The translations under genes and the position numbers were made by a program. From Malacoplasma penetrans HF-2 (lineage in GTDB: Bacteria > Bacillota_I > Bacilli_A > Mycoplasmatales > Mycoplasmoidaceae): a stretch of DNA of 64,000 bases. This document shows, one piece after another, positions 1 to 60,472 of the stretch. How positions within the stretch are numbered: position 1 is the stretch's first letter; each line of letters opens with the position of its first letter. Under the pieces are notes generated by a model. The model was not told the DNA's origin, ran no database searches, and saw only the letters and a program-made list of their open reading frames with translations. The stretch covers positions 868,001-932,000 of the forward strand of contig NC_004432.1 of NCBI RefSeq assembly GCF_000011225.1, read 5' to 3'.

Positions 1-11
1 GTATGTAGAAA

Positions 12-170
12 TAACACCAATTACTTCTACAAAATCTAAACTAAATGCAAAAAATTTATGTTATTTATTTTATTTCTAGTGTTAATTAACAACTATATTA
101 AGTCTTTTTGATATATAAATGAAATATGTTAAATAGATAAAAATATAAAAAGTAGAGTTAATTGGTGTTA
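12..170 (+). promoter_or_regulatory. Invertible promoter cassette of the gene left of the window, OFF orientation
   Basis: Two inverted copies of TAACACCAATTA (12-23 and, as TAATTGGTGTTA, 159-170) flank exactly 135 bp. The interior carries the family promoter TTAACA...TGATATATA reading rightward, away from the gene whose start lies left of position 1. The right core sits in a perfect stem (GTAGAGTTAA/TTAACTCTAC) with A and T tracts. The repeats and promoter motifs are seen directly. The OFF call is inferred from promoter direction. Confidence 0.85.
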
Positions 171-182
171 ACTCTACTTTTT
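147..182. terminator. Bidirectional terminator at the cassette's right core
   Basis: Hairpin AAAGTAGAGTTAA / TTAACTCTACTTT around the 12-bp core, with A-tract before and T-tract after. It would end the leftward gene at 230-1384 and also stop rightward transcripts from the cassette promoter. Confidence 0.8.
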
Positions 183-229
183 ATAATGACACTAACATAT
201 GTAGTTTGTTATAGTATTTAAATTAACTT

Positions 230-1384
230 TTAATTAACAGTCAAGCTTACATCAAAAGTAAATTCTTTAGAACCTGAAGATCCATCATCTCATACATAAC
301 TTGTATCATATGGTTCTGCAGTTACAGTAACTGTATAAACTTTATTACCATTGTTTGTTGCAGTAGCACTAGTATTTTCAGTTGCATTTGTTGGAGTAAA
401 TTTACAATTATAAATTCCTAGAGCAGCTGAAATTTTGTCATTGCTTAAATCAGTACTACCAGTTGCAGTAGTGTAACCTAATTTTTGTAATATAGTTGAT
501 GCAGCATCATCTCCTGTAACTTCATCAGTTGTTGCCGATGGGGCATTACCTGTTTGACTAAAATTAAGTGTAGGATCAATCCCAACATTAAAATTAAAGT
601 TAGTTGTAGTTCTATTAGCTTCACCTACATTTGTTCCAGCAACAGTAATTGTTAAATTAGGAACCACTAAATTAAGATTTGAAACAGGAATTTGTAAATC
701 ATAATTAGTTGCAGTTGCACTAGCTCCTGTTGGTGTAGCAGTTACATTAACATGAAGTAAGTCTCCATTTGTAAAACCTAGATTATTACTTACTGCTAAT
801 GTAGTAGTTTCTGGAATACTAGCAACACCAGCATTTTCTAAAGCAGTTTTTAAAGTTTCTCTTACACTTAGTTTATTGTGCAAATCATCTAATGATTCAA
901 TATTTATTTGATCACTTTCAGATGTATATACAAGCTTGTTTGCATCTGCAATTGTTATATTATTTGAATTATCTTCAGAATCTTCTCAATTTCCAGTTTC
1001 ACCATTAAAAGTTAAACCTGTTCATAATGCTCTTGAAAATTCTCCACTAACTGTAACAGATAGATCAGATACTTCACTTAATGCTTGACCATTGGCAAAA
1101 ACATCACTTAAATGATTATCTTTAATATCAGCAGCTATTTTTTGATTCGCATTTAGAGTTCCTGTTGAATCATAAATATCAGATAAAGAACCGCTTAAGT
1201 TTACAGTTTCATTAAGTTCAGGTGTAATAGTTTGAGTTTGTTGGTTTCCATTACCACCATTATTATTTCCATTGTTATCACTTGTTGAAGAACAAGAAGA
1301 AACAATCACTGGAACTGTTGCAACAATTCCAAAAGCCCCGGTCATAGCCAAAGCTTTCAATAATTTAATTTTTTTAATTTTCAT
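230..1384 (-). CDS. P35-family surface lipoprotein (single unit), paralogue 1
   Basis: Surface lipoprotein of the P35 family, 384 aa with UGA read as Trp. Residues 1-30 form a basic-hydrophobic signal and Cys31 follows ...VIVSS, a lipobox for LspA cleavage and membrane anchoring. A short Asn/Gly linker (about 35-50) follows. The family blocks then appear in order: NLSGSLSDIYD, FANGQAL, LLHVNVTATPTG, LQIPVSNLNL, FNFNVGID, LGY, LGIYNCKFT and a C-terminal WDDG...EFTFDVSLTV. The ATG has an AAAGG Shine-Dalgarno 19 nt upstream, as in all paralogues here. The promoter cassette upstream (1471-1629) points away, so the gene is inferred silent in this sequence. The family is an immunodominant antigen group; the exact function is unknown. 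Confidence 0.93.
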
Positions 1385-1470
1385 ATTTAGTTAATAATTA
1401 TTACCTTTCAAAATTTGAAATTTAAAAAAGACAAATTTACCAGTTAAATAAGAAAAACAGCAAGTAGAGA

Positions 1471-1629
1471 TAATGTAAATTATTTCTACAAAAGATAAAC
1501 TAAATGCAAAAAATATATGTGTTTAATTTTGTTTTGAATACTAATTGTTAACTATATTAAGTCATTTTGATATATAAATGAAATATGTTAAATAGATAAA
1601 AACAAAAAAGGTATAGTTAATTTACATTA
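1471..1629 (+). promoter_or_regulatory. Invertible promoter cassette of the 230-1384 gene, OFF orientation
   Basis: Cores TAATGTAAATTA (1471-1482) and TAATTTACATTA (1618-1629) are exact inverted repeats around 135 bp. The promoter inside has -35 TTAACT (1548-1553), a 17-bp spacer and extended -10 TGA-TATATA (1571-1576), reading rightward. Rightward transcripts would meet the stem at the right core within about 60 nt. Confidence 0.88.
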
Positions 1630-1643
1630 ACTCTACCTTTTTT
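1604..1643. terminator. Terminator stem at the right core of the cassette
   Basis: Stem around TAATTTACATTA with arms AAAAGGTA(T)AG / CTCTACCTTTT, A-tract on the left and T-tract on the right. No gene ends directly against it on the right, so its visible role is to stop the outward promoter. Confidence 0.7.
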
Positions 1644-1744
1644 AAGTTATGGAATTTCAAATTTAGTATTAAAAAAGCATTAACTAAATAAATCTAAATT
1701 GATTTATATCATTAAATAAAATAACTTTAATAATTTTCAGAATT

Positions 1745-1776
1745 AAAAAAAGACATTTTTTAAATGTCTCTTTGTT
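1745..1776 (-). terminator. Terminator downstream of the 1979-2434 gene and its 3' region
   Basis: AGACATTT (1751-1758) pairs with AAATGTCT (1762-1769). On the minus strand a run of T follows, as expected for intrinsic termination. It lies 200 nt past the stop of the DIP1984-like gene, so the transcript would include the GC-shifted stretch at 1785-1975. Confidence 0.65.
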
Positions 1777-1784
1777 TGTTAACA

Positions 1785-1975
1785 AACCCCAAACCTCCCT
1801 CACAATACAGTCAACATCATGGTAATAAACAATAATTAATAACTATACACTTTTGCATTATTAGCTATAACAATAAGTGTATTTTTAATTTAAATTTAAT
1901 TATATTGTTTCAACAAGGATTGCAACTAACGCTGTTGCCTGCGTGATATTCGCCCTGTAATTGTTACCAACTTAA
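1785..1975 (-). other. GC-shifted intergenic stretch, candidate structured RNA or gene remnant
   Basis: No convincing gene. About 1918-1968 is roughly half G+C in a strongly AT-rich region, and a second C-rich patch lies at about 1787-1802 (GAGGGAGG...GGGG on the minus strand). Small stems are visible (GCAAC...GTTGC; ATACACTT...AAGTGTAT; the palindrome GTTTGTTAACAAAC at 1774-1787), and the stretch ends at a terminator. One minus frame reads ...RANITQATALVAILVETI and then stops, which could be a decayed C-terminus. It does not match tmRNA, RNase P RNA or SRP RNA hallmarks that I could recognise. Confidence 0.35.
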
Positions 1976-1978
1976 CAA

Positions 1979-2434
1979 TTATTCAATTAGATCAATTGCT
2001 CAATTACTTTCTTGTAATTTGTTATCTAATAAACGTAGTTCTTTAGACATACTATCAATTTTAGATTGTCAGTTAGAAACTATAATAGTAGATTTAATTT
2101 TAATCTCACTATTTCTTGCACGATATGAACCTTGGCTTCCAGAATATGCAACATCTTTATAAGCTTGAATCTTAACTAAAAGTGCATCCTTTTTAGCAAT
2201 CATTTCAGTTAAAGTAATTCCATCAACTTTAATTAAAGAATTAGTTAAATTAATTTTGGCTACTAAATAATGAAAACGTTCAATTGCATTATCTAAGTCT
2301 TGTTTTAATTTAAGTGGATCTTCTGAAGGTTTTTCTCCTTCTTGAACTAAAACATTAGTTTTTAAACGATTTTTTAATTCTTCAATACTTCTGCTTAAAT
2401 CTGCTCTTTCTTGTAAAGCTTCTGCTAATTTCAT
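1979..2434 (-). CDS. DIP1984-family (septicolysin-like) protein
   Basis: Small helical protein of 151 aa starting MKLAEALQERADLSRSIEEL. It resembles the DIP1984/septicolysin family: an N-terminal heptad-rich helix, the block LQERADL...LKNRL near residues 6-25, and a C-terminal coiled-coil stretch (QSKIDSMSKELRLLDNKLQ) ending in NWAIDLIE. One in-frame UGA (Trp, 2069-2071) lies about 30 residues before the end. The start has AAGGG 6 nt upstream. It is probably cytosolic and its biochemical role is not established. It sits alone between the P35 array and a flavodoxin, with its own terminator downstream. Confidence 0.75.
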
Positions 2435-2597
2435 AATATTCCCTTAAGTAATTAATTACTATATTCTAACAAGAATTAAATTTAAAAGACTAATTGGAAA
2501 ATTAAAAACTTTACCATAATAATATCTAATGTATATAAACACTTAAATACAAGCAAATATTATGTTGTTTAAATTAAAGATATAAATTTATTAAGCT

Positions 2598-3077
2598 TTA
2601 ATCTAATTGATTAATTAGACTTTGAATATCATTATTTAATGAATAACTACTAATTAGTTTTCCTTTTTTAACATTTGCATTAGGAACACATTTTTTAAAA
2701 TCTGAGATTATTGATTCTAAAGAAGAACCTCCTGATGTACAAAAAGGTATAACTGTTTTGTTTTTAAAATCATAAGATTCTAAAAAAGTACAAACAACTT
2801 TTGGAACTGTATATCATCAAATTGGAAATCCAATAAAGAAAACATCATAATCATCAAAATTTTCTATTTTATTAGCAACTTCTGGTCTTGCATCTGTATT
2901 AGCTTCAACTTCTGCACGACAATCTTTTGTATTGTAATCAATATCTTGTGCTGTATATGGTTGTTTTGCTAATATTTCAAAAACATCTGATTTAACTTTT
3001 GAATGTAATGCATTTGCTGCTTTTTTAGTATTTTGAGTTAATGAAAAATAAGCAATTAAAGTTTTATTATTAGCCAT
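2598..3077 (-). CDS. Flavodoxin
   Basis: Flavodoxin of 159 aa, a small FMN-binding electron carrier of the cytosol. The N-terminus KTLIAYFSLTQNTKKAA is the beta-strand plus phosphate-binding loop of the fold (S/T-x-T-x-N/G-T). FFIGFPIWWY near residue 86 is the conserved strand and aromatic loop that stacks on the flavin, and its two Trp are both UGA. PFCTSGGSSLE is the later G-rich loop. This is the longer FldA-like NAD(P)H-dependent type common in Firmicutes. The start has AAAGG and a plausible promoter (-35 at 3138-3143, -10 at 3113-3118). It is monocistronic. Confidence 0.85.
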
Positions 3078-3112
3078 AATATTATTCCTTTAAATTAATA
3101 TGATTTGTTATC

Positions 3113-3143
3113 ATTGTAAAACTTAAAGTAAGGTTTAAGTCAA
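3113..3143 (-). promoter_or_regulatory. Candidate promoter of the flavodoxin gene
   Basis: On the minus strand TTGACT (3138-3143), then a 19-bp spacer and TACAAT (3113-3118). The spacer is longer than ideal, so this is tentative. The rest of 3144-3332 is AT-rich with nothing else recognisable, and no inverted 12-bp cores are present. Confidence 0.4.
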
Positions 3144-3332
3144 TTGCAATTAGATTGGTTTTATATAAATAATTAGTTTACAAAAATTTCTTCAAATCTT
3201 AAACACAAATTTTAATGAAAAAGATAATTTTAAAATTAACAAGATTATTGAATTTTAATAAATTTAAAATAATTTTTTTCAAAACCATTATTAAATAAAA
3301 ATTTATATCTATGAAAAGGAAATGTATAAAAC

Positions 3333-3368
3333 AAAAAAGTAGAGCAAATTTTATTAGCTCTACTTTTT
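3333..3368 (-). terminator. Terminator of the 3412-4563 P35 gene
   Basis: AAAAAGTAGAGC pairs with GCTCTACTTTTT across an 11-nt loop. It resembles the cassette stems but has no TAA-N6-TTA core and no partner repeat, so it is a plain terminator. Confidence 0.8.
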
Positions 3369-3411
3369 GTTAAATTTTTTTAATATAGATTTTTGTTATT
3401 TAAAAACTTAT

Positions 3412-4563
3412 TTAGTTTACAGTTAAACTAACATCAAAAGAAAACTCTTTAGTATCTGTTGAACCATCATCTCAAACATAGTTAGAATCATATGGTGCTG
3501 CATCTACTACAACAGTATAAACTTTATTACCACCAAGACCTGCTGTAGCACCTTGTTTTTCTGTAGCACTCTTAGGAGTAAATTTACAATTGTAAATTCC
3601 TAGAGCTGCTGATATTTTATCATTATCCAAATTATTGCCTGTTTGATACCCTAATTTTTTAAGAACTTCTGTTGCATTATTAGCTTCAGCTGTAGTAGCA
3701 GTAGGAGCAGTACCAGTTTGAGTAAAGTTAAGCGTTGAATCTATTCCAATGTTGTAACTAAAGTTTGTAGTTAAATCACTTACTGCTTCTATATTTGTTC
3801 CAGTAGAATTATTTGTTGCACTAACTGAAACTTTAAGTATTGTTTTTAAGTTAATGTTAGATACAGGGATTTGTAAATCTAAATTAAGATTTCCTCCATT
3901 AGCTGCAGTTCTATTTGCTTTTATATTTACATGAAGTAAGTCTCCATTTGTTAAGCCTAATTTATTTTCAACTGTAAAACTTGAAGTGTTAGAAAAACTT
4001 AAATTTGCAGCAGTTAAAAAAGCTTGTATAGTAGTATCATCTTTAAATGTTTCTTGTTTTAATGCATTTAATGAAGCAATATCTATTTGTGGTGCAGCAG
4101 CAGGGTAAGTAACTTTAACAACTCCTGTAACTGCAGATCATGTAGTATAATCACTTCCTTCAGTTCATTGAGATGCACTAAATCCACCATCTACAGTTAC
4201 AGTAGATTGATTAATAACATCTTTTAATTCAGAACCATTAGTAAAATAATTTTCTGGATTTGCTTTAATATCTTCTGATATTAATTCATTTGTAGTTTTA
4301 GAATCTGTTCCATAAATAGTGCTTAATTTACCATTTAATTCCACATTATCTTTAAGTTCTGGCTTAACAGTTTTATTTTCTTGTTGGTCAGTATTGCCTG
4401 ATCCTCCACCATCACCTTGATTTCCATTTCCACCTGTATTATTTCCTGATCCACCATTATCAGTAGAAGAACAAGATGAAACAATTATTGGAACTGTTGC
4501 AACAATTCCAAAAGCTCCGGTTAATGCAAGAGCTTTCAATAATTTAATTTTTTTAATTTTCAT
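3412..4563 (-). CDS. P35-family surface lipoprotein (single unit), paralogue 2
   Basis: 383 aa with several UGA Trp codons. Signal and Cys31 are as in paralogue 1, followed by a Gly/Asn linker (about 35-60) and VELNGKLSTIYG. The family blocks GLTNGDLLHVNIKAN, DLQIPVSNINL, LTTNFSYNIGID and ALGIYNCKFTPK follow, with C-terminus YVWDDGSTDTKEFSFDVSLTVN. The C-terminal 150 residues are closest to paralogue 1. The start is preceded by the family's far Shine-Dalgarno (19 nt). Its cassette at 4654-4811 points away, so it is inferred OFF. Confidence 0.93.
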
Positions 4564-4653
4564 ATTTAGTTAATAATTATTACCTTTCAAAATTTGAAAT
4601 ATAAAAAAGACAAATTTACCAGTTAAACTAAGGCAATAATTATTAAGGAGAGG

Positions 4654-4811
4654 TAATTGGAATTATCTGAAATTAAATTCAAATAAATACAAAAAATTTA
4701 TGTGTTTTATTTCATTTTCAGTACTAATTAATGACTATATAAACCATTTTTGGTATATAAATGAAATATGTTAAACTAATGCATAATAAAAAGTAGAGTT
4801 AATTCCAATTA
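4654..4811 (+). promoter_or_regulatory. Invertible promoter cassette of the 3412-4563 gene, OFF orientation
   Basis: Cores TAATTGGAATTA (4654-4665) and TAATTCCAATTA (4800-4811) flank 134 bp. The interior carries the family promoter with extended -10 TGG-TATATA reading rightward. Confidence 0.87.
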
Positions 4812-4824
4812 ACTCTACTTTTTT
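4788..4824. terminator. Terminator stem at the right core; ends the 4868-6187 gene
   Basis: AAAAGTAGAGTTAA / TTAACTCTACTTTT around the core, with A and T tracts on both sides, so it can act in both directions. Confidence 0.78.
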
Positions 4825-4867
4825 ATTTAATAAAATACTTAGTTTATTTTTTATTTATAACCAAATT

Positions 4868-6187
4868 TTATGGTTGCGCAGCTGCAGTAATATCAAGAAT
4901 TACATCAAAAGAAATGTTTTTTGCCGTGCTAGTTCCATCTTCTCATACATATCCATCATTTGGTTTAGCACTTAATGTGATTGTATATGTTTTTTCATTT
5001 TCTTCATTACCACTATTAGTTTTGGGTTCTATTTTAGAATTAGAGTCTTTTGAAAAAGTAACATTATAAATTCCTAAACCTTCAATTAAGTTCTCATTAT
5101 TTAATGTTGCTTCTTGACCTTGAGTTCCTTCATTTGCATATCCAAATTTAACTAATATAGTATCTAGCTTCCCAGCATCTGATTCAGTAGCTTGAGGTTT
5201 AGCACCTTCATTATCTTGATTAGTAGAATCATTAATTCCAATATTATAAGTTAATGTTGTTCTTAATGTAGATGTAGTTACATTATCCCCTTTAACTGTT
5301 ACTTCTAAATCAGTTAATTTTAGATTTAAATCTGAAACTGGAATTTGTAAATCATAGTTAGTAGTAGTATCTTCTGAACCTTCTACTTTTGTTGTTCCTA
5401 CAACATTAACATGAAGTAAATCTTTATTGTCAGAACCTAAAGCTTTATTAGTAAAACCTAAAGCATTGTCAACACTATATGTTGTGTTAGCTTCTGGTTT
5501 TGTTTCGGTATCTTTAAGAATCTCTTTAAGTTTTGAATCATTCAATTGTGTTTTCAAATCACTTAATGATGAAATAGTAAGAGGTTGAGTTTTAGATGGA
5601 TACAATAATTTATTTTCTGGTTCAATTAGTATACTAGTTTGGTCTGCTTGATCGTTCCCTCAAAACACACTTGAACCATCCGATGAATGGTTAAAAGGCA
5701 AACCAGTCCAAGTTGAATCTGGAAATTTATGATTTACACTAATGTCTAAACTAGAAATGTCTTTTAATGCTTCCCCGTTATCAAATACTTCACTAAGATT
5801 CTTTTTAATTTCATCTGCTATTAAATTATTTGTATTACTAGTATTAGCTGTGTCATAGATATTACTTAAAGCACCACCCAGTGTTACTGTTGATTTTATT
5901 TTAGGAGTAATAGTTTCAGTTTGTTGGTCTCCTTGATTACCATTCCCATTGTTTTCATTAGGATTACTTTCACCTTGGTTATTGCTATTACTATCACCAT
6001 TACCTTGACCAGAGTTGTTTTCATTGTTGCTGTTATTACCGTTATTATTATTATTATTATTTGAGTTATCATTTGTGTTATTGTCTGCAACTGAACAAGA
6101 AGAAATAATAATTGGAACTATTGAAACAATTCCTAAAGTGCTTGTTAATGCTAAAGCTTTTAATAATTTTATTTTTTTAATTTTCAT
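4868..6187 (-). CDS. P35-family lipoprotein, long divergent paralogue without an invertible cassette
   Basis: 439 aa, the longest single-unit member here. The signal diverges from the others (...ALTSTLGIVSIVPIIISSC, Cys near 31-32), and the Asn-rich low-complexity linker spans about 60 residues against 12-30 in the rest. The body keeps the family blocks: LGGALSNIYD, DLLHVNVVGT, DLQIPVSDLNL, TLTYNIGIND, LGIYNVTF and YVWEDGTSTAKNISFDV. The C-terminal tail is extended (DITAAAQP). The upstream 424 bp contain no 12-bp inverted cores, so expression is probably not phase-variable by inversion. The far Shine-Dalgarno is kept. Confidence 0.9.
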
Positions 6188-6524
6188 ATTTAGTTAATAA
6201 TCATTCCTTTCTGTAATTTAATAAATAAAAAAATAATAGTTAAATAAATAAAAGAAAAAACAAAGTAAAAACAATTTTACTTCTGTGTTCTTTTTACCTA
6301 CTTATTTCTCTTTTAATTTTTAATTACTTATTATTAACTAAAAAAAGTAATATGTCCAATTAAATAAATGCATATATTTTTAACACTTGTTTGGTTCAAG
6401 TTGTTTTTTTTATAGAGTGTATATTTTCTTTTGAACTTTAAATATTTTTAATAAAATTACAAAAAAATAAATGTTTTGTTAACACACTTTTTTAGATTTA
6501 TTAGTTCATTAAAAACAAAAATAC
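6188..6524 (-). other. Fixed upstream region of the 4868-6187 gene
   Basis: AT-rich region without genes. Two weak minus-strand promoter candidates are visible: TTGAAC-17-TATATG near 6370-6400 and TTGGAC-17-TAATAA near 6340-6365. Neither is followed by the conserved leader seen at the other paralogues, and no TAA-N6-TTA inverted pair is present. Confidence 0.4.
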
Positions 6525-6562
6525 CTCTTTATTAAAGAGGCATTTTTGTTTAGTTCCCATTA
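6525..6562 (-). terminator. Terminator of the 6612-7742 gene
   Basis: CCTCTTT (6534-6540) pairs with AAAGAGG (6544-6550), flanked by A and T tracts. It is unrelated to the cassette stems, consistent with no cassette at this junction. Confidence 0.85.
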
Positions 6563-6611
6563 AATAGGAATTTGAATTTATTAAAACTTAGTTTGTTTTA
6601 TTTAATTTATA

Positions 6612-7742
6612 TTAGTTTCCTGTCATTGTAAAAGTAGCTTCAAAAGAAATTTCTTTTTCAGTGTTTGTACCATCTTCTCAAACATAATCAGTCAATGGTT
6701 TTGCTTTAAGTTTAATTGTAAACTTATCTTCAGAACCTTCTACAGGAGTAGCACTTACAGCTGTAAATTCACAATTGTATAAACCTAAACTATTAGAAAC
6801 TTTATCATTATCCAATTTAGTCTCATCACCAGTTTGAGTATATCCTAGTGCTTTTAAAACTTTCATCACTTCACCCTTATCTGTTTTTGCTAAATTTGGT
6901 TTTTCAGTAGGTGCAGTAACTTCTTCTTTTATACCAATGTTGTATGTAAAGTTTGTTGTTAAATCTGATACAGCTGCAACATTATTTCCTGTTGAATTAT
7001 TAGAAGCTGTTACAGAAACTTTAAGATCTGTAATTTTTAAATTAAGATCTGATACAGGAATCCCTAAATCCATATTAAGAGTTTTACCTGCTTGAGTTGC
7101 TGTTACATTAATATGTAATAAATCACCTCCAGTAAACCCTAATTCATTTTGGATCTTGTAACTGTCTGCATCAGCTGTACTAAAAACTAAATTTGATTCA
7201 TCACAAATAGCTTTTATTTTTGCTGAAGTATCTAATTGAGATTTAAGATCTTTTAAAGAATTTATATTTAGTTGTTTTGAAGTAGACTTATAAACACCTT
7301 TGTGAGTATCAGCTACAGCAGATCATTTTGAATAAGCATCTCCTGTTCATACAGAATTTGAATCAAAACTACCATCAACAGTAACACTTCATCCTTCTAC
7401 CTTCTTTAAGTCTTCTCCATTAGTGAAATAATTTTCTGGATTAGCTTTAATATCTTCAGCTATCAAAGTATTTGTATTTTTTCTGGAATCACCAGTGTTT
7501 GTAGTGTCATAAATTTTACTTAATGCACCACTTAAAGTTACATCTGATTTGATTGCAGGAGTATAAGTTGTACCTTGTTGTTGGTCAGTTCCGCTACCTC
7601 CACCACCTGTGTTGTTATCACCAGTTCCTCCATTGTTATCAGTTGACGAACAAGAAGAAACAATTACTGGAACTGTTGCAACAATTCCAAAAGCTCCGGT
7701 TAATGCAAGAGCTTTCAATAATTTAATTTTTTTAATTTTCAT
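6612..7742 (-). CDS. P35-family surface lipoprotein (single unit), paralogue 4
   Basis: 376 aa. Signal ...VPVIVSSC with Cys31, then a Gly/Asn linker and VTLSGALSKIYDTTNTGD. The central blocks are LGFTGGDLLHINVTATQAG, MDLGIPVSDLNLKITDLKVSV, LTTNFTYNIGIK, LGYTQTG and SLGLYNCEFT. The C-terminus is DYVWEDGTNTEKEISFEATFTM. It is most similar to the 9416-10543 paralogue (shared KITxLKVSV block with the same Asn/Gly insertion). Its cassette at 7829-7987 points away, inferred OFF. Confidence 0.93.
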
Positions 7743-7828
7743 AATATTTAGTTAATAATTATTACCTTTCAAATTTTGAAATATAAAAAAGACAAATTTA
7801 CCAGTTAAGTCAAAATCATCAGTAGAAA

Positions 7829-7987
7829 TAATCAGCATTATCTGAAATAAAAGTTCAAATAAATACAAAAAATATATGTGTTTTATTTAATTTAGGAAAA
7901 TATTTAGTAAGCATATAAGTAATTTTTGGTATATAAATGAAATATGTTAAGTTGGATTATGAAAAAAAGTAGAGTTAATGCTGATTA
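7829..7987 (+). promoter_or_regulatory. Invertible promoter cassette of the 6612-7742 gene, OFF orientation
   Basis: Cores TAATCAGCATTA (7829-7840) and TAATGCTGATTA (7976-7987) flank 135 bp. The extended -10 is TGG-TATATA, reading rightward. Confidence 0.88.
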
Positions 7988-8001
7988 ACTCTACTTTTTT
8001 T
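7962..8001. terminator. Terminator stem at the right core; ends the 8041-9129 gene
   Basis: GTAGAGTTAA / TTAACTCTAC around the core, with seven A before and a T-run after. This would terminate the one P35 gene inferred to be expressed. Confidence 0.82.
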
Positions 8002-8040
8002 AATAAAAAAAATTAATGTAATTTGTTTTAAAACAACTTT

Positions 8041-9129
8041 TTAGCTAAAAGTTGCTACAAATGAAATATCTTCTTTTGCTCCGTTTGTACCATCTTCTCA
8101 AAAGTAACCATCATTAGGTGTTGCTTTTAAAGTAACTGTATATTTATTATTATTAGTACTATCTTTTTCACTTTTAACAGCTTCAAATTTACAGTTATAT
8201 AAACCTAATGCATCTGCAAGTTTATCTTGATCTAATGTGTAAGTAGAACCTGAAACAGTAGCATATCCTAATTTTTCTAATACTTTTTCTGCATTTGTTC
8301 TATCAGCTTCTGCTAATGTTACAGCAGCAGGTGTTAGTGTTTTAACAGTGTTATCAATACCAATGTTAAATTTGTAATTTGTTGTTAATTCACTAGTTTT
8401 AATACCTGTTCCACTAACTGATATTTTTAAACCATCTATTTTTAAATTTAAATCAGATACTGGAATAGCTAAATCCATACTAACATCTGTTTGACCATCT
8501 TTTGCTGTTACATTAATGTGTAATAAATCTTCAGATAATGATAATCCATTATTTGTAACCTTATAATCAGTACCATTATTTAATTTTAAGTTTGGAATAA
8601 GATCACAGATTCCCTTAATTGCAGCAGAATCACCTAAAACTGTTTGTAAATCATTTATAGATTTAATATCCAATTGTTTTGATGCTTGTGAATATGTTCC
8701 TTTTTTAACATCTGCTTTAGCTGATCAAACACTGTATGCTTCACCTGTAAATGTTGATTCTGTAAAACCTCCATCTACTGTTACAGTAGCACTAGCTATT
8801 ACATCCTTTAAAGCTTCACCATTAGTGAAATAATTTTCTGGATTAGCTTTAATATCTTTAACTATCAATTGAGAAGTTGTTTCTCTGTCTGTGCCTGTTT
8901 TAGTATCATATATTTTACTTAATGCTCCAGTTAATGATACTTCAGATTTTATTGCAGGTGTAACTTCTGTTTGTTGAGTGTTACCATCTGTTCCACCATT
9001 CCCGTTTCCATTACCATTGTTTTCACTTGTAGAAGAACAAGAAGAAACAATTACTGGAACTGTTGCAACAATTCCAAAAGCCCCGGTTAATGCAAGAGCT
9101 TTCAATAATTTAATTTTTTTAATTTTCAT
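8041..9129 (-). CDS. P35-family surface lipoprotein, paralogue 5; the only one with its promoter facing it
   Basis: 362 aa. Signal and Cys31 are as in the family, followed by a short Asn/Gly linker, VSLTGALSKIYDTKTG, ENYFTNGEALKDV, DLLHINVTAKDGQ, MDLAIPVSDLNLKIDGLKISVSGTG, LTTNYKFNIGID and ALGLYNCKFEAV. The C-terminus is GYFWEDGTNGAKEDISFVATFS. It forms a subgroup with the 10839 and 12225 genes (KIDxLKISVxGTGIK). The upstream cassette is inverted relative to all others, placing -35 TTAACA (9294-9299) and -10 TATATA (9271-9276) toward this gene. It is therefore the one paralogue inferred ON in the sequenced molecules. Confidence 0.93.
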
Positions 9130-9217
9130 AATATTTAGTTAATAATTATTACCTTTCAAATTTTGAAATATAAAAAAGACAAATTTACTAGTTAAACAGA
9201 AAATTAATAAGTAGAGG

Positions 9218-9376
9218 TAACAAGAATTAACTCTACTTTTTTAATTTTTATCTATTTAACATATTTCATTTATATATCAAAAATATCTAATATTGTTAAT
9301 AATTAATATCCAAAATGAAATAAAAAACAAAAAATATTTGCATTTAGTTTCTATTTTTTAGAAATAATTCTTGTTA
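9218..9376 (-). promoter_or_regulatory. Invertible promoter cassette of the 8041-9129 gene, ON orientation
   Basis: Cores TAACAAGAATTA (9218-9229) and TAATTCTTGTTA (9365-9376) flank 135 bp. Everything between the cores is reversed relative to the other seven cassettes, while the outer flanks are not, so the switch point lies inside the cores. On the minus strand the promoter is TTAACA (9294-9299), 17-bp spacer, TGA-TATATA (-10 at 9271-9276), facing the ATG at 9129. The perfect stem is now at the left core (9209-9242), between promoter and gene, where it lacks a T-tract in the reading direction. Confidence 0.88.
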
Positions 9377-9415
9377 ACTCTACTTTTTATTTATAGTTTG
9401 TTTATTTGTTGATCA

Positions 9416-10543
9416 CTAATTTACTGTAAAAGTAACATCAAATGAAACATCTTTTGCTTCTCTAGTTCCATCTTCTCAAACATAATTTTCATTTGGAGTA
9501 GCTTTTAAAGTAATAGTAAATTTATTTGGTGTGTTACTATCTTCTTGAATAGAAGAAGCAACAAAAGTACAATTATATATTCCTACTGCAGCAGCAATTT
9601 TATCATTATCTAAAGACCCATCTGTCTTTGTATAGCCTAATGCTTTTAATGCTTCATTAACATTATTTTTATTAGCTTCTGTAGTTGTAGGAGTTGTAGT
9701 TGGTTGTGTAAAGTCTACAGTATCTTTAATACCAATATTATAAGTAAAATCAGTAGTTAAGTTTTCAACAGATTCAACATTATTACCTGTTTCATTATTA
9801 GTACCATTTACTGAAACTTTAAGACCAGTAATTTTTAAATTAAGATCTGATACCGGAATTCCTAGATTCATATTACGTGTATTATTACCATCTTGAGCAG
9901 TTACATTAATATGCAATAAGTCATCACCTGTAAAACCTACTTGATTCTGAACTTGATAACTACTAGCAGTAGCACTACTAAATCTTAAACCAGGAATTGC
10001 ATCACAAATTGCTTTTAGTTTTGTTGAATCACTCAATTGAGTTTTTAAATCATTTAATGAAGTTATGTTTAATTGTTCTGAAGCAATTGCATAAACACCT
10101 GAAAAAGTAGCATTTGCTGATCATGCACTATATGCTTCTCCTGTTCATGTAGATTGTGAATCAAAATTACCATCTACAGTAACACTTCAACCTTGAACAT
10201 TTTTTAAATCTGCACCATTAGTAAAATAATCTTCAGGATTTGATAAAATATCCTGAGCTATCATTTCATTAGTGTTTTTTCTAGAGTCTCCAGTAGTAGT
10301 GTCATAAATTTTACTTAATGAACCACTTAAAGAAACTTCTGTTTTAATAGCAGGAGTGTAAGTTGTACCTTGTTGTTGGTCAGTTCCACTTCCTCCACCA
10401 TTATTATCATTGTTATTGTTTCCATTACCATTGTTATCACTTGTTGAAGAACAAGAAGAAACAATTACTGGAACTGTTGCAACAATTCCAAAAGCCCCGG
10501 TTAATGCAAGAGCTTTCAATAATTTAATTTTTTTAATTTTCAT
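9416..10543 (-). CDS. P35-family surface lipoprotein (single unit), paralogue 6
   Basis: 375 aa. Cys31 lipoprotein with a linker rich in Asn/Gly, VSLSGSLSKIYDTTTGD, EDYFTNGADLKNVQG, VGFTGDDLLHINVTAQDG, MNLGIPVSDLNLKITGLKVSVNG, LTTDFTYNIGIK, AVGIYNCTFVAS and C-terminal YVWEDGTREAKDVSFDVTFTVN. It ends in UAG. It pairs with the 6612-7742 gene by its internal Asn/Gly insertion. The cassette at 10635-10794 points away. Its 3' stem at 9365-9376 is the imperfect one because the neighbouring cassette is inverted, so termination of this gene should be weaker in this state. Confidence 0.93.
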
Positions 10544-10634
10544 AATATTTAGTTAATAATTATTACCTTTCAAATTTTGAAATATAAAAAAGACAAATTT
10601 ACCAGTTAAATAAATGAAAATTGATGGGTAGAAA

Positions 10635-10794
10635 TAATAGGAATTGTTTCTAAATAAATTAAAACTAAATGCAAAATTTCTTTGTGTTTTATTTCATTGA
10701 GAGTAATAATTATTAACAATATTAGGTATTTTTGGTATATAAATGAAATATGTTAAATAGATAAAAATAAAAAAGGTAGAGTTAATTCCTATTA
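10635..10794 (+). promoter_or_regulatory. Invertible promoter cassette of the 9416-10543 gene, OFF orientation, imperfect core
   Basis: Left core TAATAGGAATTG (10635-10646) and right core TAATTCCTATTA (10783-10794) match over 11 of 12 positions; the last base of the left core is G instead of A. The spacing is 136 bp and the extended -10 is TGG-TATATA, reading rightward. Confidence 0.82.
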
Positions 10795-10807
10795 ACTCTA
10801 CCTTTTT
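10769..10807. terminator. Terminator stem at the right core; ends the 10839-11924 gene
   Basis: AAAGGTAGAGTTAA / TTAACTCTACCTTT around the core, with A and T tracts. Confidence 0.8.
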
Positions 10808-10838
10808 CTATTATTAAAATAAACAATGTTTTTATTTC

Positions 10839-11924
10839 TTAACTATTACTTAAAGTAGCAACAAATGATACATCTGTTTTAGGTGTGTTTGTACCATCTT
10901 CTCAAACATAATCTTTGTTAGGTGTAGCTTTTAATTTGATTGTATATTCTCCACTTGTACTACCAGTAACTGGATCAACTCCAGTAACTTCAAAAGAACA
11001 ATTATACAATCCTAATGCATCTGAAAGTTTATCGTTATCTAAATTAGTTCCAGCTGTATCAGTGTAACCTAAAGCTTTCATTACTTTTAAAAATTCTTTT
11101 CTTTCATTTTCTGCTAAAACTCCCTTAGCTCCAGTTATTGTCTTAACCGTATTATCAATACCAACATTAAATGTGTATTTTGTTGTCAAATCAGTTGATG
11201 TTTTGATTCCTGTTCCATTAACTGATATTTTTAAATCATCTATTTTTAAATTTAGATCTGATACAGGAATAGCTAAATCCATTTTAACACGGTCTGTTTT
11301 TCCATCTTCTTTTGCTGTTATATTAACATGCAATAGATCTCCATCTAATTTTAATGCATTCTTTTCAACTTTATAATCAGAACCATTTGTTATTTTTAAA
11401 CTAGAAATAGATTCACAAAGTGTTTGAATTGCTTTCGAGTCTCCAAGTTGTGTTTCTAAATCATTTATTGATTTGATGTTTAATTGTGCAGCAGATTGCG
11501 GGTATGTTCCCTTTTTTGCATCTTTTGATCAAACATCATATGTTTCACCTTTAAAAGTTGATTCAGTAAATCCACCATTTACACTTACTGTTGCATCTTT
11601 AATAAGTTCTTTTAAAGCATCTCCATTATCAAAATAGTTTGTAGGGTTAGCTTTAATATCTTCAGCAATTAAATCACTTGTAGTTTTTTTACCATCATAA
11701 ATTTTACTTAAAGCACCTGATAAAGATACTTCAGTTTTTATTGTTGGTGTAACTTCAGTTTGTTGTTGGCCACCATCTCCTTGGCCACCTGGATTATTGT
11801 CACTATTTCCATTGTTATCACTTGTTGAAGAACAAGAAGAAACAATTACTGGAACTGTTGCAACAATTCCAAAAGCTCCGGTTAATGCCAAAGCTTTCAA
11901 TAATTTAATTTTTTTAATTTTCAT
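10839..11924 (-). CDS. P35-family surface lipoprotein (single unit), paralogue 7
   Basis: 361 aa. Cys31, linker ending in QQQTEVTPTIK, then VSLSGALSKIYDGKKT, TNYFDNGDALKEL, MDLAIPVSDLNLKIDDLKISVNGTGIK, TTKYTFNVGID, ALGLYNCSFEV and C-terminus YVWEDGTNTPKTDVSFVATLSNS. It is a member of the GTGIK subgroup together with the 8041 and 12225 genes. Its cassette at 12013-12169 points away, inferred OFF. Confidence 0.93.
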
Positions 11925-12012
11925 ATTTAGTTAATAATTATTACCTTTCAAATTTTGAAATTTTAAAAAAGACAAATTTACCAGTTAAATGAATAAAAAT
12001 TGTAAGTAGAGA

Positions 12013-12169
12013 TAATATAAATTACTTCTAAAGAAATAAAAGAAAATGCAAAATTTCTTTGTGTTTTATTTAATTTTGAGTATTAATTATTAAGAATATT
12101 GAGTGTTTTTGATATATAAATGAAATATGTTAAATGTATAACTTAAAAAGGTAGAGTTAATTTATATTA
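12013..12169 (+). promoter_or_regulatory. Invertible promoter cassette of the 10839-11924 gene, OFF orientation
   Basis: Cores TAATATAAATTA (12013-12024) and TAATTTATATTA (12158-12169) flank 133 bp. The extended -10 is TGA-TATATA, rightward. Confidence 0.87.
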
Positions 12170-12183
12170 ACTCTACCTTTTTT
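12145..12183. terminator. Terminator stem at the right core; ends the 12225-13313 gene
   Basis: AAAGGTAGAGTTAA / TTAACTCTACCTTT around the core, with A and T tracts. Confidence 0.8.
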
Positions 12184-12224
12184 CTATTATTAAAATAAAC
12201 AAGTATTTAACTTATTATTATTTT

Positions 12225-13313
12225 TTAATTTAAAGTCGCTTCAAATGTAATGTCTGTTTTAGGGTTGTTTGTTCCATCTTCTCAAACATATCCTTCATTT
12301 GGAGTGGCTTTTAATGTAATAGTATATTTATTAGCTTGACCACTTACGGGTTTGCTACTAACTGCTTCAAAGTTACAGTTATATAAACCTAAAGCATCTG
12401 AAAGTTTATCATTGTCTAATTTATCATCTTGACCTGAAACAGTATACCCTAAAGCTTTCATTACTGTCATCACTTTTTCTCTATCACCTGCAGTTACAGT
12501 TCCTGTAGCATTTGTTATTGGTTTAACTGTATTATCAATACCAACATTGAATTTATAATTAGTAGTTAAATCAGTAGATTCTTTAATACCTGTTCCACTA
12601 ACTGATATTTTTAAAGCATCTATCTTTAAATTTAGATCAGATACTGGTATAGCTAAATCCATACTTACTGCAGTTGTTCCATTTTCTTTTGCTGATATAT
12701 TAACATGTAGTAGATCACCATCTAATTTTAGTGCATTCTTTTCAACTTTATAATCAGAACCATTAGTTAATTTCAAAGTAGGAATAGCATCACAAATAAT
12801 TTTTATATTATTTGAATCTCCAAGTTGTGTTTCTAAATCATTTATTGATTTAATATCCAATTGTTTTGAAGCTTGTGCATAAGTCCCTTTTTTATCACCA
12901 ACTTTAGCTGATCAAGTTTCATATGTATCACCTTTGAAAGTAGATTCAGTAAATCCACCATTAACACTCACTGTTGCATCTTTAATAAGATCTTTTAAAG
13001 CTTCTCCATTGTCAAAATAATTTGTTGGATTTGCTTTAATATCTTCAGCAATTAAATCACTTGTAGATTTATTTGCATCATAAATTTTACTTAAAGCACC
13101 TGATAGAGATACTTCTTTTTTTATTGTTGGTGTAATTTCAGTTTGTTGTTGACCATTACCATCTTGGTTGCCATTGTTGTTATTGTTTCCATTCCCTCCA
13201 TTGTTATCACTTGTTGAAGAACAAGAAGAAACAATTACTGGAACTGTTGCAACAATTCCAAAAGCTCCGGTTAATGCAAGAGCTTTCAATAATTTAATTT
13301 TTTTAATTTTCAT
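12225..13313 (-). CDS. P35-family surface lipoprotein (single unit), paralogue 8
   Basis: 362 aa. It is nearly the same in layout as the 10839-11924 protein: the block around INGG/VNGGFTESTFKG, KKEVSLSGALSKIYD, and KIDALKISVSGTGIK are shared, which indicates recent duplication or conversion. Signal with Cys31 and an Asn-rich linker (about 35-55). C-terminus GYVWEDGTNNPKTDITFEATLN. Its cassette at 13402-13560 points away, inferred OFF. This is the last (rightmost) gene of the single-unit array. Confidence 0.93.
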
Positions 13314-13401
13314 AATATTTAGTTAATAATTATTACCTTTCAAATTTTGAAATATAAAAAAGACAAATTTACCAGTTAAACTAAAAAATAATGAGGAGAA
13401 A

Positions 13402-13560
13402 TAATTAGAATTATCTGAACTATAAAAGGAAATAAATACAAAAAATATATGTTATTAATTTTGTTTTAGATATAAATTGTTGTCTATCTTATTGATTTTT
13501 GTTATATAAATGAAATATGTTAAACTAACAAAATAAAAAAGGTATAGTTAATTCTAATTA
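13402..13560 (+). promoter_or_regulatory. Invertible promoter cassette of the 12225-13313 gene, OFF orientation
   Basis: Cores TAATTAGAATTA (13402-13413) and TAATTCTAATTA (13549-13560) flank 135 bp. The extended -10 is TGT-TATATA, rightward. Confidence 0.87.
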
Positions 13561-13573
13561 ACTCTACCTTTTT
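13535..13573. terminator. Terminator stem at the right core of the last cassette
   Basis: Arms AAAAGGTATAG / CTCTACCTTTT around the core, with T-tract to the right. It stops the outward promoter. The next gene on the right ends 100 nt away, so it may serve that gene as well. Confidence 0.7.
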
Positions 13574-13603
13574 GTGTATATGAAATGAAATTTAGTTATT
13601 TGA

Positions 13604-13663
13604 TATTAATAAGAAAAATCATTGTAAACACTATGTATGAACAACTTATATATTCTTATTAAT
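13604..13663. repeat. Inverted repeat downstream of the 13676-14512 lipoprotein
   Basis: ATTAATAAGAA (about 13604-13614) is the inverse of TTCTTATTAAT (about 13653-13663), with a 38-nt loop. It may be a loose terminator or mRNA 3' structure. No T-tract of note follows. Confidence 0.4.
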
Positions 13664-13675
13664 TATTCAAATATG

Positions 13676-14512
13676 TTATGCAGCAAATGCATAATCCAAC
13701 AAGAACTGTAAACTCTCTTTTTCTTTTTTAATGTTATGAGTAAGATAACCATAAAGATTTTTAACATCTTCTTGACCTTTGCCTAATACATAGGGGTTGT
13801 CCATTTTCTTAGCATAAGCATAAATTAAAAACTCTTCTTTTAATGATGCTAAATGTAAATAGTCACTAAGAAAATAACTATATATTTTATTATCATTGCT
13901 TATATCTTGATTTATGTTCTTATCTATAATTAAAGATTTATGTGTTTCTTTATATGTACTTAAATATTGTGATTTCGAAACAAATAAATGACCAATATTA
14001 TTTTCTTTATATGCCTTAGCAATTTCAGTTCATACATTAATGTAATCACTTTCTTCAGTTCCTGTTACTGCATCAACCTTTGCTTGGAGATCAAATGATT
14101 TATCTGAAATACTTTGTTTTTTAGCATTATGTTCATTTACTTTATCTACCATTGCTTTTAAAGCAGGATCAGAATCATCGTCTCCTTCTTTCTTTTCATA
14201 TTTTTGCAAAGCCTCTAATTCTACTTTTGCATCTGCTGCATTTTTTTGTTGTCTACTTATTTGTGCTTCACTCATAGTTCTATCATTTGTACCATTTGAA
14301 ACCATAACACTAGCTTCTAAATCTGCAGATTCATCTGAGTATTGTTCATTACTATTATTAGAATTGTTACTTCCTGATCCATTGTTATCTGAATTATTGT
14401 TTTGATCAGATGAATTAGAAGAAACTGCTCCACAGCTCGCTAATAAAACAGGAACTGAAACTATAGCTGAAAAAGAAGCAGTACCTAATAATAATTTTTT
14501 TGAAAATTTCAT
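13676..14512 (-). CDS. Lipoprotein of unknown function
   Basis: 278 aa. Signal MKFSKKLLLGTASFSAI... with lipobox LASC and Cys27, then a Ser/Asn-rich linker to about residue 60. A charged, helical region (EAQISRQQKNAADAK..., likely coiled coil) follows, then a C-terminal domain with KTHKSL-like and SYFLSDYLHLASLKEEFLIYAYAK segments, ending in LLDYAFAA. One UGA Trp lies near residue 161. It is not a P35 member. I do not recognise the family. It has its own upstream region with a long nested stem-loop (14543-14592), so it need not be co-transcribed with the folate genes on its right. Confidence 0.8.
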
Positions 14513-14542
14513 ATTTATTTAATTCCTTTAAGTTTATTAAAA

Positions 14543-14592
14543 TTAACTGCTATAAAACTAATCTCTATAAATTAGTTAATAGTAGCAGTTAA
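14543..14592 (-). promoter_or_regulatory. Nested stem-loop between the DHFR gene and the lipoprotein gene
   Basis: TTAACTGCTA (14543-14552) pairs with TAGCAGTTAA (14583-14592). Inside it AACTAAT (14556-14562) pairs with ATTAGTT (14571-14577). It lies 30 nt before the lipoprotein start, followed by T-rich sequence on the minus strand. It could be the terminator of the folate operon or a leader structure; the sequence alone does not decide. Confidence 0.55.
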
Positions 14593-14694
14593 TTAATAGT
14601 TCATCTTTCTAAGTTATCATATTCTAACTAAAAAAAGTAAAAGTTAAAATAATCATTTATTCCACTTTTTTGTGCATATCAATTATAAAGTTGA

Positions 14695-15159
14695 TTAAAC
14701 TTTTCTATATTCAAAAAATGTAAATTGTTCATATTCTTTTTGGTTTACTATTTCAAAACCATCAAAGCTATTATCCATAAATAAATCACATTCATATGCT
14801 GAATTTAGTTTAGATACATATAGTATTGAACATTTGTTAATAAAATAATCATAGATACTTTTACCACCAATAATAAATATTGATTCATCTCTATTTTTAT
14901 ATTCATTATAGAATTGTTCAATATCATCATATACTTCTATATCCTTATATAAGGATGCATCTAATGTTTTAGAAATAACAATATTTTTTCTATTTGGTAA
15001 AGCTTTACCAATTGATAAGAAAGTGTTTTTCCCCATTACTATAGTGTTATTTAAAGTATGTTTTTTAAATAGATTTAAATCCTCTTTAATGTTTCAAGGT
15101 AATTTATTGTTTTTACCTATTCCTCTATTTTTATCTTCACATCAAATAGAAATAAACAT
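14695..15159 (-). CDS. folA: Dihydrofolate reductase
   Basis: 154 aa. It reduces dihydrofolate to tetrahydrofolate with NADPH in the cytosol, regenerating the cofactor oxidised by the neighbouring thymidylate synthase. Visible family motifs: the N-terminal strand FISIWCEDKNRGIGKNNKLPW (Met20-type loop ending LPW), acidic residue in WNIKEDLNLFKKHT (substrate site), VMGKNTF (cofactor loop), GGKSIYDYF (the GG-x-x-I/L-Y NADPH motif) and C-terminal FFEYRKV. Two Trp are UGA. The ATG overlaps the thyA stop by 1 nt (TAATG), which implies translational coupling. AAGGGAAGG lies at the end of thyA. Confidence 0.92.
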
Positions 15160-16028
15160 TATACTGCTACCTTCCCTTTAATAGCTGGATGAGAATTATA
15201 ATCTTTAATTTCAATATCTTCTATTTTAAAATCAAAGATATTTTTAATATTTTTATTTAATACTAATGTTGGTAATTGCAATGGTTCTCTAGTTAGTTGT
15301 TCTTTAACTTGATCAATATGATTGTTATAAATATGAGCTACTCCAATAGTGTGAACAAATTCTTTTGCAGTAGTATTTGTAACTTGAGCAATCATATAAG
15401 TTAATAAACTATATGAAGCAATATTAAAAGGAACTCCTAAAAATAGATCTGCACTTCTTTGATATAACTGACAAGATAATTCATTTTTTGAATTAACAAA
15501 AAATTGAAATAAACAATGACAAGGTGGTAATAACATATTTTTAATTTCACTAGGATTTCAAACACTTACAATTAATCTTCTAGAATACTTATTTTTCTTG
15601 ATCTCTTCTATTAGATTAGTAATTTGATCTACCCCATTAAAATTTCTTCATTGTCTTCCATATACTGGTCCAAGTTCACCAAATTGTTTAGCAAATGAAT
15701 CATCTTCTTTAATTTTTAAAATGAATTCATCAATAGATTCATTTTTGAAATATGGAGATTTTTTATAGTTTTCATAAGGTCATTCATTTCAGATTTTTAC
15801 ATTATTATCCACAAGGTATTTAATATTAGTTTCACCTTTTAAAAATCATAATAATTCATGGAAAATTGCTTTATAAGCCATTTTCTTAGTTGTTAATAAT
15901 GGAAAACCTTTAGTTAGATCATATCTAGATTGTGTTCCAAAATATGCAATAGCATCAGTATCAGTTCTGTTCTCTTGCATTATCCCATTATCTAAAACCA
16001 GTTTTAATAAGTCTTTATATTCTTTCAT
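15159..16028 (-). CDS. thyA: Thymidylate synthase
   Basis: 289 aa, slightly longer than the 264-residue E. coli enzyme. It methylates dUMP to dTMP using 5,10-methylene-THF, producing dihydrofolate. Motifs: N-terminal [12 protein letters not shown]...R(T)DT, arginine-containing phosphate loop region [30 protein letters not shown], the catalytic PPCHC with nucleophile near Cys170, [20 protein letters not shown] (dUMP recognition) and [10 protein letters not shown]. Several Trp are UGA. Its first 14 nt overlap the 3' end of folD and its stop overlaps the DHFR start, so the three genes form one tight operon. Confidence 0.95.
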
Positions 16029-50785: not shown

Positions 50786-50825
50786 TTAAATGTTATAAGT
50801 TACTAAACTATTTATTTATAGATTA

Positions 50826-52919
50826 TTAAGAAACTGTAAGATCAACCTTAAAAGAAAGTTCTTTAGGAACATTTGTTCCATCTTCTCAATAATAGTTAGT
50901 ATTAGGAGTTGCTTTTAAAGTAATGGTAAAGTTATTAGCAGTAGATGCATCTTCTTGGATTGATATCCCTTCAAAAGTACAATTAAATACTCCTAAAGCT
51001 GCAGATATTTTATCTTTATTTAAAGTGTAATTAGTTCCACTTTTAGTTGCAAACCCTAATGATACTAATGCCTCATTAACATTTGTTTTATTAGCAGAAG
51101 ATAATGCAGTTACACCAGTTGTTGGTTTAACAAAGTTTACTGTATCATCAATCCCAACATTATAGGTGTAGTTAACAGATCCATTAGATAATGCTTTTAC
51201 ATTACTTCCAGAAACTGATACACCAAGATTAGAAACTTTTAAATTAATATCAGATACTGGTATTGCTAAATCTACTGTGAAAGGATTTGTTGTCCATTCG
51301 GATGTTATTCTTATATTGACATGCAATAAGTCACCACCAGATAAACCTATTTCATTTTGAATAGCAAAACTAGAACCACTAAATTTTAAACCTGCTGCTA
51401 AAAGGATTCCATACAAACCTTTAGTTGTTAGTTTTGTTTTTAAATCATTAAGTGAAGTAATATCAATTTGTGCTGATTCTGATGAATATATACCAGTATA
51501 AGATGTTGATGATTTTCATGTATCATAAGCAACTCCAGTTCAAGTAGAAGTTGGGAAATTACCATTTACTGTTACATCTAAATCTTCAACTGTTTTTAAA
51601 TCATTACCATTAGAAAAATAATTATTTAAATTTGATTTAATATCTTCAGCAATTACAGTATTAGTATCTTTTCTAGTACCACTTCCACTAGTGTCAAAGA
51701 TTCTACTTAATGAACCTTTTAAATCAAGAGTTGAATTTAATGATGGTGTGATTTCATCAACACTTACATTAACATTAAAAGATACTGGTTTAGTATCTGA
51801 AGTTCCATCTTCTCATACAAAATCTTTATTAGGAGTTGGAGTGGCATCTAGAGAAATTTTATATGAACCTGTTGTTCCATCTGTTGTTGAACCATTTGGA
51901 GCAATTGAAGCATTAGCGTTAGAAAAAGTTACATTGTAAATTCCTAACTCTTCTTTTAATAAATCCTGGTTTAAAGTTATTTGGTTATTTGCTGCAACTT
52001 CAGCATATCCTAATTTAACTAAAATCTTATTTGCACTCTTAACTTCTGAAGCACTTGCAACAGGGGCATCAACTGGATTTGTAAATTGGCTTTGATCACT
52101 AATACCAACATTGTAAGAAAAATTAGTTGTTTTATTAGTTTGTGTTTCTACATTATCCCCACTTACTGAAACAATCATATTTGAAACATTTAAGTTAATG
52201 TTAGAGATTGGAATTTGTAAATCTATACTTTTAGTGTTGCTAGAAGCATCAGTTTCTATAACATTAACATGAACTAAATTATCACCAACTAAGCCTAGAT
52301 TACTTCCACTAGCAATTGAATAAGTTGCAGTTGAATCAAATTTAGAAGCATCAGACTTAGAAATAATATCTTTCAGTTTTGTATCATTATTTAACTGTGA
52401 TTTAAAATCATCTAATGAAGAAATATTAAACTGATCTAAACTTGATCCATATAAAATTTCATTACCTACAGTTTCTTTACCTCACCCAATATTTTGATCA
52501 TATTGTTTGTTTCCTCAAGTTACACCACCTGAAAAACCACCATCTACACTAATTGATAGATTATTTACTTTTTCCAAATCTGATGCATTATCAAAAGATT
52601 TATCTAAGTTATTTTTAATCTCTTGTGCAATCAAAGAATTAGTATTAGAAGAAGACGAATTTTTAGCATCAAATATTTTGTCTAATGAACCAGATAAATT
52701 AATAGATGATTTTAATTTAGGAACAATTGTTTGAGCTTGTGGTGTAGTGTCTCCTCCACCATCTTGATTGTTGTTATCTTGATTATTTTGATTTTTAGAA
52801 TTTGTTAAACTAGCTGATATTACATATTTAGATAATAATGTTATAGGAACAGCTGCAGTTGCAACAAAAATACCTGTTATTGACAGGATTTTCAATAATT
52901 TTTTTCTTTGTGATTTCAT
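50826..52919 (-). CDS. Two-unit P35-like surface protein, no lipobox
   Basis: 697 aa made of two P35 units. N-terminus MKSQRKKLLKILSITGIF... is a basic start plus a hydrophobic segment (8-35) without Cys, so anchoring is by a membrane helix or secretion, not by lipid. An Asn/Gln linker follows, then unit 1 (INLSGSLDKIFD, NLVHVNVIE, DLQIPISNINLNVSN, NFSYNVGISD, LGIYNVTFSNA, FVWEDGTS). Unit 2 follows directly (LKGSLSRIFDTSGSG, SNYFSNGNDLK-like, DLLHVNIRITS, DLAIPVSDINLKVSN, VNYTYNVGIDD, LGVFNCTFEG, YYWEDGTNVPKELSFKVDLTVS). Far Shine-Dalgarno (20 nt) and extended -10 TGT-TATAAC at 53022-53027. Confidence 0.88.
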
Positions 52920-53257: not shown

Positions 53258-53292
53258 AAAAATCTAAAGTCATTTATCAACTTTAGATTTTT
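53258..53292 (-). terminator. Terminator of the 53310-55353 gene
   Basis: AATCTAAAGT (53261-53270) pairs with ACTTTAGATT (53280-53289), with A and T tracts. Nearly the same as the one at 55560-55595. Confidence 0.88.
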
Positions 53293-53309
53293 ATAAAATA
53301 AATAATTTA

Positions 53310-55595: not shown

Positions 55596-55611
55596 TAAAA
55601 TAAATAATTTA

Positions 55612-60456: not shown

Positions 60457-60472
60457 TTTTTATAATCTTATA

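Follow-up and report, generated by a model that had tools for sequence, protein, structure and literature searches.

A recombination site predicted to double as a bidirectional intrinsic terminator at the invertible mpl promoters of Malacoplasma penetrans

We identified a family of invertible promoter cassettes in the mpl (P35) lipoprotein gene array of Malacoplasma penetrans HF-2 and consider it probable, with good confidence, that they act as a coupled switch, in which the recombinase-inverted mpl promoter has a right recombination site that doubles as a bidirectional intrinsic terminator. The right site scored as a terminator in 29 of 32 cassettes in the OFF orientation (promoter reading away from its own gene) and in 0 of 32 in the ON orientation, both when read leftward, as the neighboring gene's mRNA arrives, and when read rightward, as the OFF promoter fires. 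These counts support the original prediction that the OFF right site ends the right-hand gene and that promoter and terminator flip together.

The window, the whole stretch of 64,000 nucleotides analyzed, covers bases 868001-932000 of the single 1,358,633-bp contig and lies in the mpl/P35 lipoprotein array. The genome was searched with one OFF cassette and the cores were then delimited, yielding 32 closely similar cassettes, a count drawn from genome stretches around cassettes that could miss others elsewhere in the genome. The cassettes are ~159 bp long and are bounded by a 12-mer left core resembling TAAYNNNDATTA and by its reverse complement, which is exact except in one cassette (11/12). 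The central core bases are gene-specific, and a promoter block, ATATAAATGAAATATGTTAA, is invariant and near one segment end in an alignment of 16 same-sense segments. Thirty cassettes were OFF and 2 were ON, at window 9218-9376 and genome 852234-852392; the remaining ON junctions reported here are sequence inverted in silico. The cores of the ON cassette in the window, TAACAAGAATTA at 9218-9229 and TAATTCTTGTTA at 9365-9376, are exact inverted 12-bp repeats, and its promoter motif is aimed left at gene 8041-9129, the 7 other cassettes of the window being aimed right. Among the 31 segments closely similar to it elsewhere in the genome, 30 are oppositely oriented relative to their own gene. Both flanking genes belong to PF07668 (MpPF1, M. 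penetrans paralogue family 1; E values in Table 1) and encode P35/mpl-type lipoproteins on the minus strand, with TGA as tryptophan; gene 9416-10543 is itself OFF in this genome. Decayed mpl copies are suggested at genome 832515-833658, 835486-836645, 839876-840985, and 866816-867925, with frame breaks or TAA and cassettes still intact.

A promoter segment between short inverted repeats upstream of an mpl gene, found in both orientations and belonging to a gene for a P35-type (MpPF1) lipoprotein, matches what is described for mpl (P35) of Mycoplasma penetrans, a lipoprotein family of ~38 genes in three clusters with individual promoter inversion and a Xer-like tyrosine recombinase. Inversion of individual mpl promoters is known (Horino et al. 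2003, 2009, as relayed in passages of PMC2268961, PMC9187656, and PMC10502178), and the cassettes described here are very probably the same loci. Those passages mention only the promoter flip and not the terminator half of the switch; the original mpl papers may already describe the terminator, and our claim to novelty is limited accordingly. Two tyrosine recombinase (Phage_integrase) genes are located away from the main array, at genome 379833-380297 (+) and 1096333-1096773 (-); they are presumably MYPE2900 and MYPE8180 of the literature.

Table 1. Window features of the mpl promoter cassettes and their neighborhood (d, terminator score; a dot marks features assigned to neither strand)
Feature	Position	Strand	Details
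Invertible promoter segment, ON	9218..9376	-	promoter reads left; exact 12-bp inverted cores at both ends
Left hybrid site (ON), GTAGAGGTAACAAGAATTAACTCTAC	9211..9236	.	leftward d = -32; folding
Right hybrid site (ON), TTAGAAATAATTCTTGTTAACTCTAC	9358..9383	.	broken hairpin; leftward d = -109, rightward d = -59
Conserved promoter block, TATATAAATGAAATATG	9260..9276	-	(near-)invariant in 16-cassette alignment; start putative
mpl (P35 family, MpPF1) lipoprotein gene, driven by ON cassette	8041..9129	-	translation, code table 4; PF07668, E 9e-107
Neighboring mpl lipoprotein gene	9416..10543	-	translation; PF07668, E 5e-116; no predicted terminator <=260 nt past stop in present orientation
OFF cassette of gene 9416-10543 (comparison)	10631..10793	+	promoter reads right; core 11/12
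OFF right site, GTAGAGTTAATTCCTATTAACTCTAC, bidirectional predicted terminator	10776..10801	.	d = 33.6 leftward, 16.8 rightward; fold z -5.3, -6.7
OFF right site ending ON gene 8041-9129 (predicted)	7969..7994	.	d = 13.0 leftward, 17.3 rightward
OFF right site, cassette 12-170	152..177	.	stem pattern, terminator score
OFF right site, cassette 1471-1629	1611..1636	.	rightward d -8.6, one stem mismatch
OFF right site, cassette 4654-4811	4793..4818	.	stem pattern, terminator score
OFF right site, cassette 12013-12169	12151..12176	.	stem pattern, terminator score
OFF right site, cassette 13402-13560	13542..13567	.	rightward d -10.8, one stem mismatch
Fixed terminator (predicted; no inverted core partner) of mpl gene 3412-4563	3339..3363	.	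d = 14.5; no cassette just downstream
TTGGAATTGTTGCAACAGTTCCAG hairpins	9054-9077, 7667-7690, 10468-10491, 11849-11872, 13238-13261	-	window

The OFF right site has the form GTAGAGTTAAT-N4-RTTAACTCTAC, A-rich before and T-rich after, with T-tracts on both sides. Its core sits in the hairpin loop, and the two stem arms therefore lie on opposite sides of the crossover. The GTAGAG/CTCTAC stem with T-tract that had been proposed around the right core of OFF cassettes was found at the 7 window sites starting at 152, 1611, 4793, 7969, 10776, 12151, and 13542, with one mismatch each at 1611 and 13542, and a pattern search of the window returned 16 strand matches against 0.00 expected in shuffles.

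Every junction was scored in the OFF and the ON orientation, read leftward and rightward, using ViennaRNA and a score formula in the style of d'Aubenton-Carafa, d > 0 being taken as a terminator. The underlying rules come from E. coli and Bacillus, and their support in mycoplasmas consists of the published use of a related terminator score by the M. agalactiae authors (PMC2268961). The median leftward d at the right site was 16 in OFF and -102 in ON, and the 29 OFF sites scoring in each direction have a stable stem-loop followed immediately by a U-tract, as in intrinsic terminators. The outcome was unchanged when entire cassettes were scanned together with 60 nt of flank to either side, and dinucleotide-shuffled downstream regions reached d > 0 in 1 of 336 cases. 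Leftward scores failed in cassettes 855437, 973791, and 852, and rightward scores in cassettes 833891, 869611, and 881542. Folding the junctions separately, a check called for by the original prediction, gave -20 to -23 kcal/mol for OFF right junctions (z -5 to -10), against -2.5 kcal/mol for the ON right junction (window 9340-9405, minus strand), no better than shuffles (z 0.01 and -0.5), in line with the poor stem expected there. The sigma-70 scan was uninformative in this AT-rich DNA (47 found, 45.5 expected), so the transcription start is only bracketed; an outward RNA of ~60 nt, as first proposed, is plausible, but with a putative start 45-65 nt is the safer range. No RNA family was found by Rfam in window 1-16000. 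No Rho was found above the family cut-off in this genome, and the weak matches at 69-73 kb are probably F1-ATPase-type paralogues.

The ON cassette combines the halves differently. Its left hybrid site joins the left outer arm to the inner arm that in OFF is part of the terminator; the GTAGAG/CTCTAC stem is kept with one G/A mismatch, and the leftward tail, UUAUUAAUUUU, is a weak U-tract. The folding model makes this site a hairpin in the 5'UTR that lacks a good U-tract in the gene direction. The supposed perfect left stem thus survives in its GTAGAG/CTCTAC pairing but not as perfect or general, since CTCTAC is found in the left outer arm of only 8 of the 32 cassettes and full 7-base pairing with it as an ON hybrid in 0 of 32. 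The readthrough anticipated at this site is still expected because of the imperfect stem and weak U-tract, and read leftward from the ON promoter the left site scored as a terminator in 0 of 32 cassettes. At the right hybrid site the outer T-tract (9384-9388) is stemless, and re-inverting the site in silico to OFF restored d = 11 and 15. Termination of gene 9416-10543 had been predicted to be weakened, which understates the result because no back-up terminator was found up to 260 nt past its stop; the gene being itself OFF, readthrough would be of consequence only where both genes are ON in the same cell.

For 36 mpl-type reading frames we scanned the 260 nt that follow the stop. Almost all intact mpl genes have one predicted terminator and no more, either a fixed hairpin or the right site of the following cassette in OFF; in most adjacent pairs that right site begins 33-54 nt beyond the stop. 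The only apparently intact main-cluster gene without a predicted terminator is 9416-10543, which has the ON cassette downstream; the other genes without a match are two apparent fragments (836106 and 973092) and 973865, where the stem of the cassette contains a mismatch. The second ON cassette is located 193 nt beyond its neighbor, which keeps its own fixed predicted terminator. Cassettes 855437 and 852 (852234, locus L032), in which the leftward score fails and the rightward score is good, are far from a neighbor with a fixed terminator, which fits relaxed selection, the number being too small for proof.

The stem arms coincide with the inverted arms expected around a tyrosine-recombinase core, are present at every site, and are related in sequence between left and right sites, so the palindrome could be a recombinase binding site only, its terminator look being incidental in AT-rich DNA. 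The left site provides an internal control for this reading because the same recombinase must use it. Arms paired over all 7 nt were found in 28 of 32 OFF right sites, 4 of 32 OFF left sites, and 0 of 32 hybrid ON sites; therefore, recombinase binding alone does not force symmetry. Mean T-tract scores were 3.98 (right outer), 4.25 (right inner), 2.02 (left outer), and 0.45 (left inner) against a background of 1.26, and left sites have no strong T-tracts. The base pair just outside the arms covaries, being a matched G-C or A-T pair in 30 of 32 cassettes (table 13, 1, 1, 17; Fisher p 5e-7, the 32 paralogues not being independent), with 8-9 changes per side on the tree of cassette segments; this also speaks against a recombinase site alone, although we give it moderate weight because covariation could also be mimicked by gene conversion that copies both arms of the 26-bp site at once. 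Fixed hairpins of similar sequence, with no core partner, were moreover found at a similar distance past mpl genes without a nearby cassette. On this evidence, chiefly the left sites that are bound to serve the same recombinase without symmetry or T-tracts, we rejected the incidental palindrome as unlikely.

Arm asymmetry might instead bias recombination, as OFF pairs like with like (homotypic arms) and ON pairs hybrid sites, so that one state would flip faster and the terminator would be a by-product. The excess of 30 OFF over 2 ON cassettes in this genome fits such a bias, but it does not account for the one-terminator-per-gene arrangement, or for the fact that only the right site has T-tracts to its left and right; as the whole explanation it is very improbable, and as a contributing effect it is compatible with the coupled switch and does not exclude it. 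A main role of the hairpins in stabilizing or processing RNA instead of terminating it, whether in the 5'UTR or at the 3' end of the mRNA, is favored by the stable ON 5'UTR hairpin (-14.2 kcal/mol, z -4.6) but is hardly credible given a U-tract directly after the stem, which indicates termination rather than processing, and a terminator score that separates OFF and ON completely.

In the coupled switch that we favor, one stem arm and the leftward U-tract would move with the segment, and the other arm and the rightward U-tract would stay outside, because the crossover core lies in the hairpin loop. In the OFF state the halves would meet, and the hairpin would halt transcription from the outward promoter after ~45-65 nt, before it runs antisense into the neighbor; the same hairpin would end the neighbor's mRNA, so that an active neighbor could not leak into the silent gene. 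In the ON state the inner arm would be carried to the left site, where imperfect pairing and a weak U-tract in the gene direction would let the gene be read, while the right hairpin would be dismantled and the neighbor, if also ON, would read into a gene already ON. We lean, with less assurance than for the switch itself, toward the broader reading that the binding arms of the recombination site are the strands of a bidirectional terminator stem and that with each flip of the promoter an insulator is assembled or taken apart, at each of ~30 loci independently.

Tandem genes that are switched independently need insulation, as transcription of an active gene must be kept out of a silent neighbor and a turned promoter still fires. 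A single 26-bp site would solve both problems with no extra sequence, and the insulator would be removed only when unneeded; insulation would presumably be the selected benefit. If so, a family of outward RNAs, 45-65 nt in length, would be expected from OFF cassettes, and dicistronic transcripts from adjacent genes only when both are ON. The arrangement would represent a compact design rule for coupled promoter/terminator switches in an organism without recognizable Rho.

Known switches share parts of this design. In E. coli, inversion of fimS links the fim operon with its promoter, and fimE with a terminator that depends on Rho (PMC9993118), so that one inversion connects or disconnects a promoter on one side and the terminator of the neighboring gene on the other, and the mpl inversion likewise disconnected the neighboring gene from its predicted terminator in silico. 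However, the fimS terminator is Rho-dependent and carried by the element, whereas the 32 mpl cassettes have an intrinsic hairpin split across the recombination site in a genome with no recognizable Rho; they would work like fimS but are not members of its class because their terminator is not Rho-dependent (no Rho above cut-off). In Clostridioides difficile cwpV, inversion at an inverted repeat is proposed to create an intrinsic terminator in OFF only, but the invertible segment does not contain the promoter, and the gene blocked by the terminator is cwpV itself (PMC2784873); in the mpl cassettes it is the promoter that is inverted, with the terminator facing the outward promoter and the neighbor. 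The vpma locus of M. agalactiae combines Xer-type inversion of lipoprotein genes with intrinsic terminators after each gene that keep its units monocistronic, but these terminators are reported 40-80 nt after stops, with no description of a split at the recombination site (PMC2268961). The difference from these precedents is the combination of an intrinsic hairpin split exactly at the crossover core, bidirectionality, ~30 loci, and no recognizable Rho. The cassette pattern, searched in 10 genomes of the genus, matched in this genome only and in none of nine congeners; mpl homologues in two congeners have no such inverted cores before their starts, and no related cassettes were found in the genome-contig and viral-contig collections searched, so a between-species comparison had no relative with the same cassette to draw on.

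Besides the 32 cassettes, 3 more inverted-core cassettes with divergent segments and the same arm type were identified at genome 967985-968155 (L035), 938826-938993 (L034), and 335658-335827 (L036). Their terminator scores are mostly weak; the cassette at 967985, which has a perfect stem at the site proximal to its gene, may represent a third of the ON-like kind. Window 50800-64000 contains another tandem array of MpPF1 paralogues, with units of ~2.3-2.5 kb, and no GTAGAG-type recombination-site pair was seen in it. Further, the part of mpl genes that encodes the signal peptide repeatedly contains a 10-bp hairpin, TTGGAATTGTTGCAACAGTTCCAG, which may be merely conserved coding sequence.
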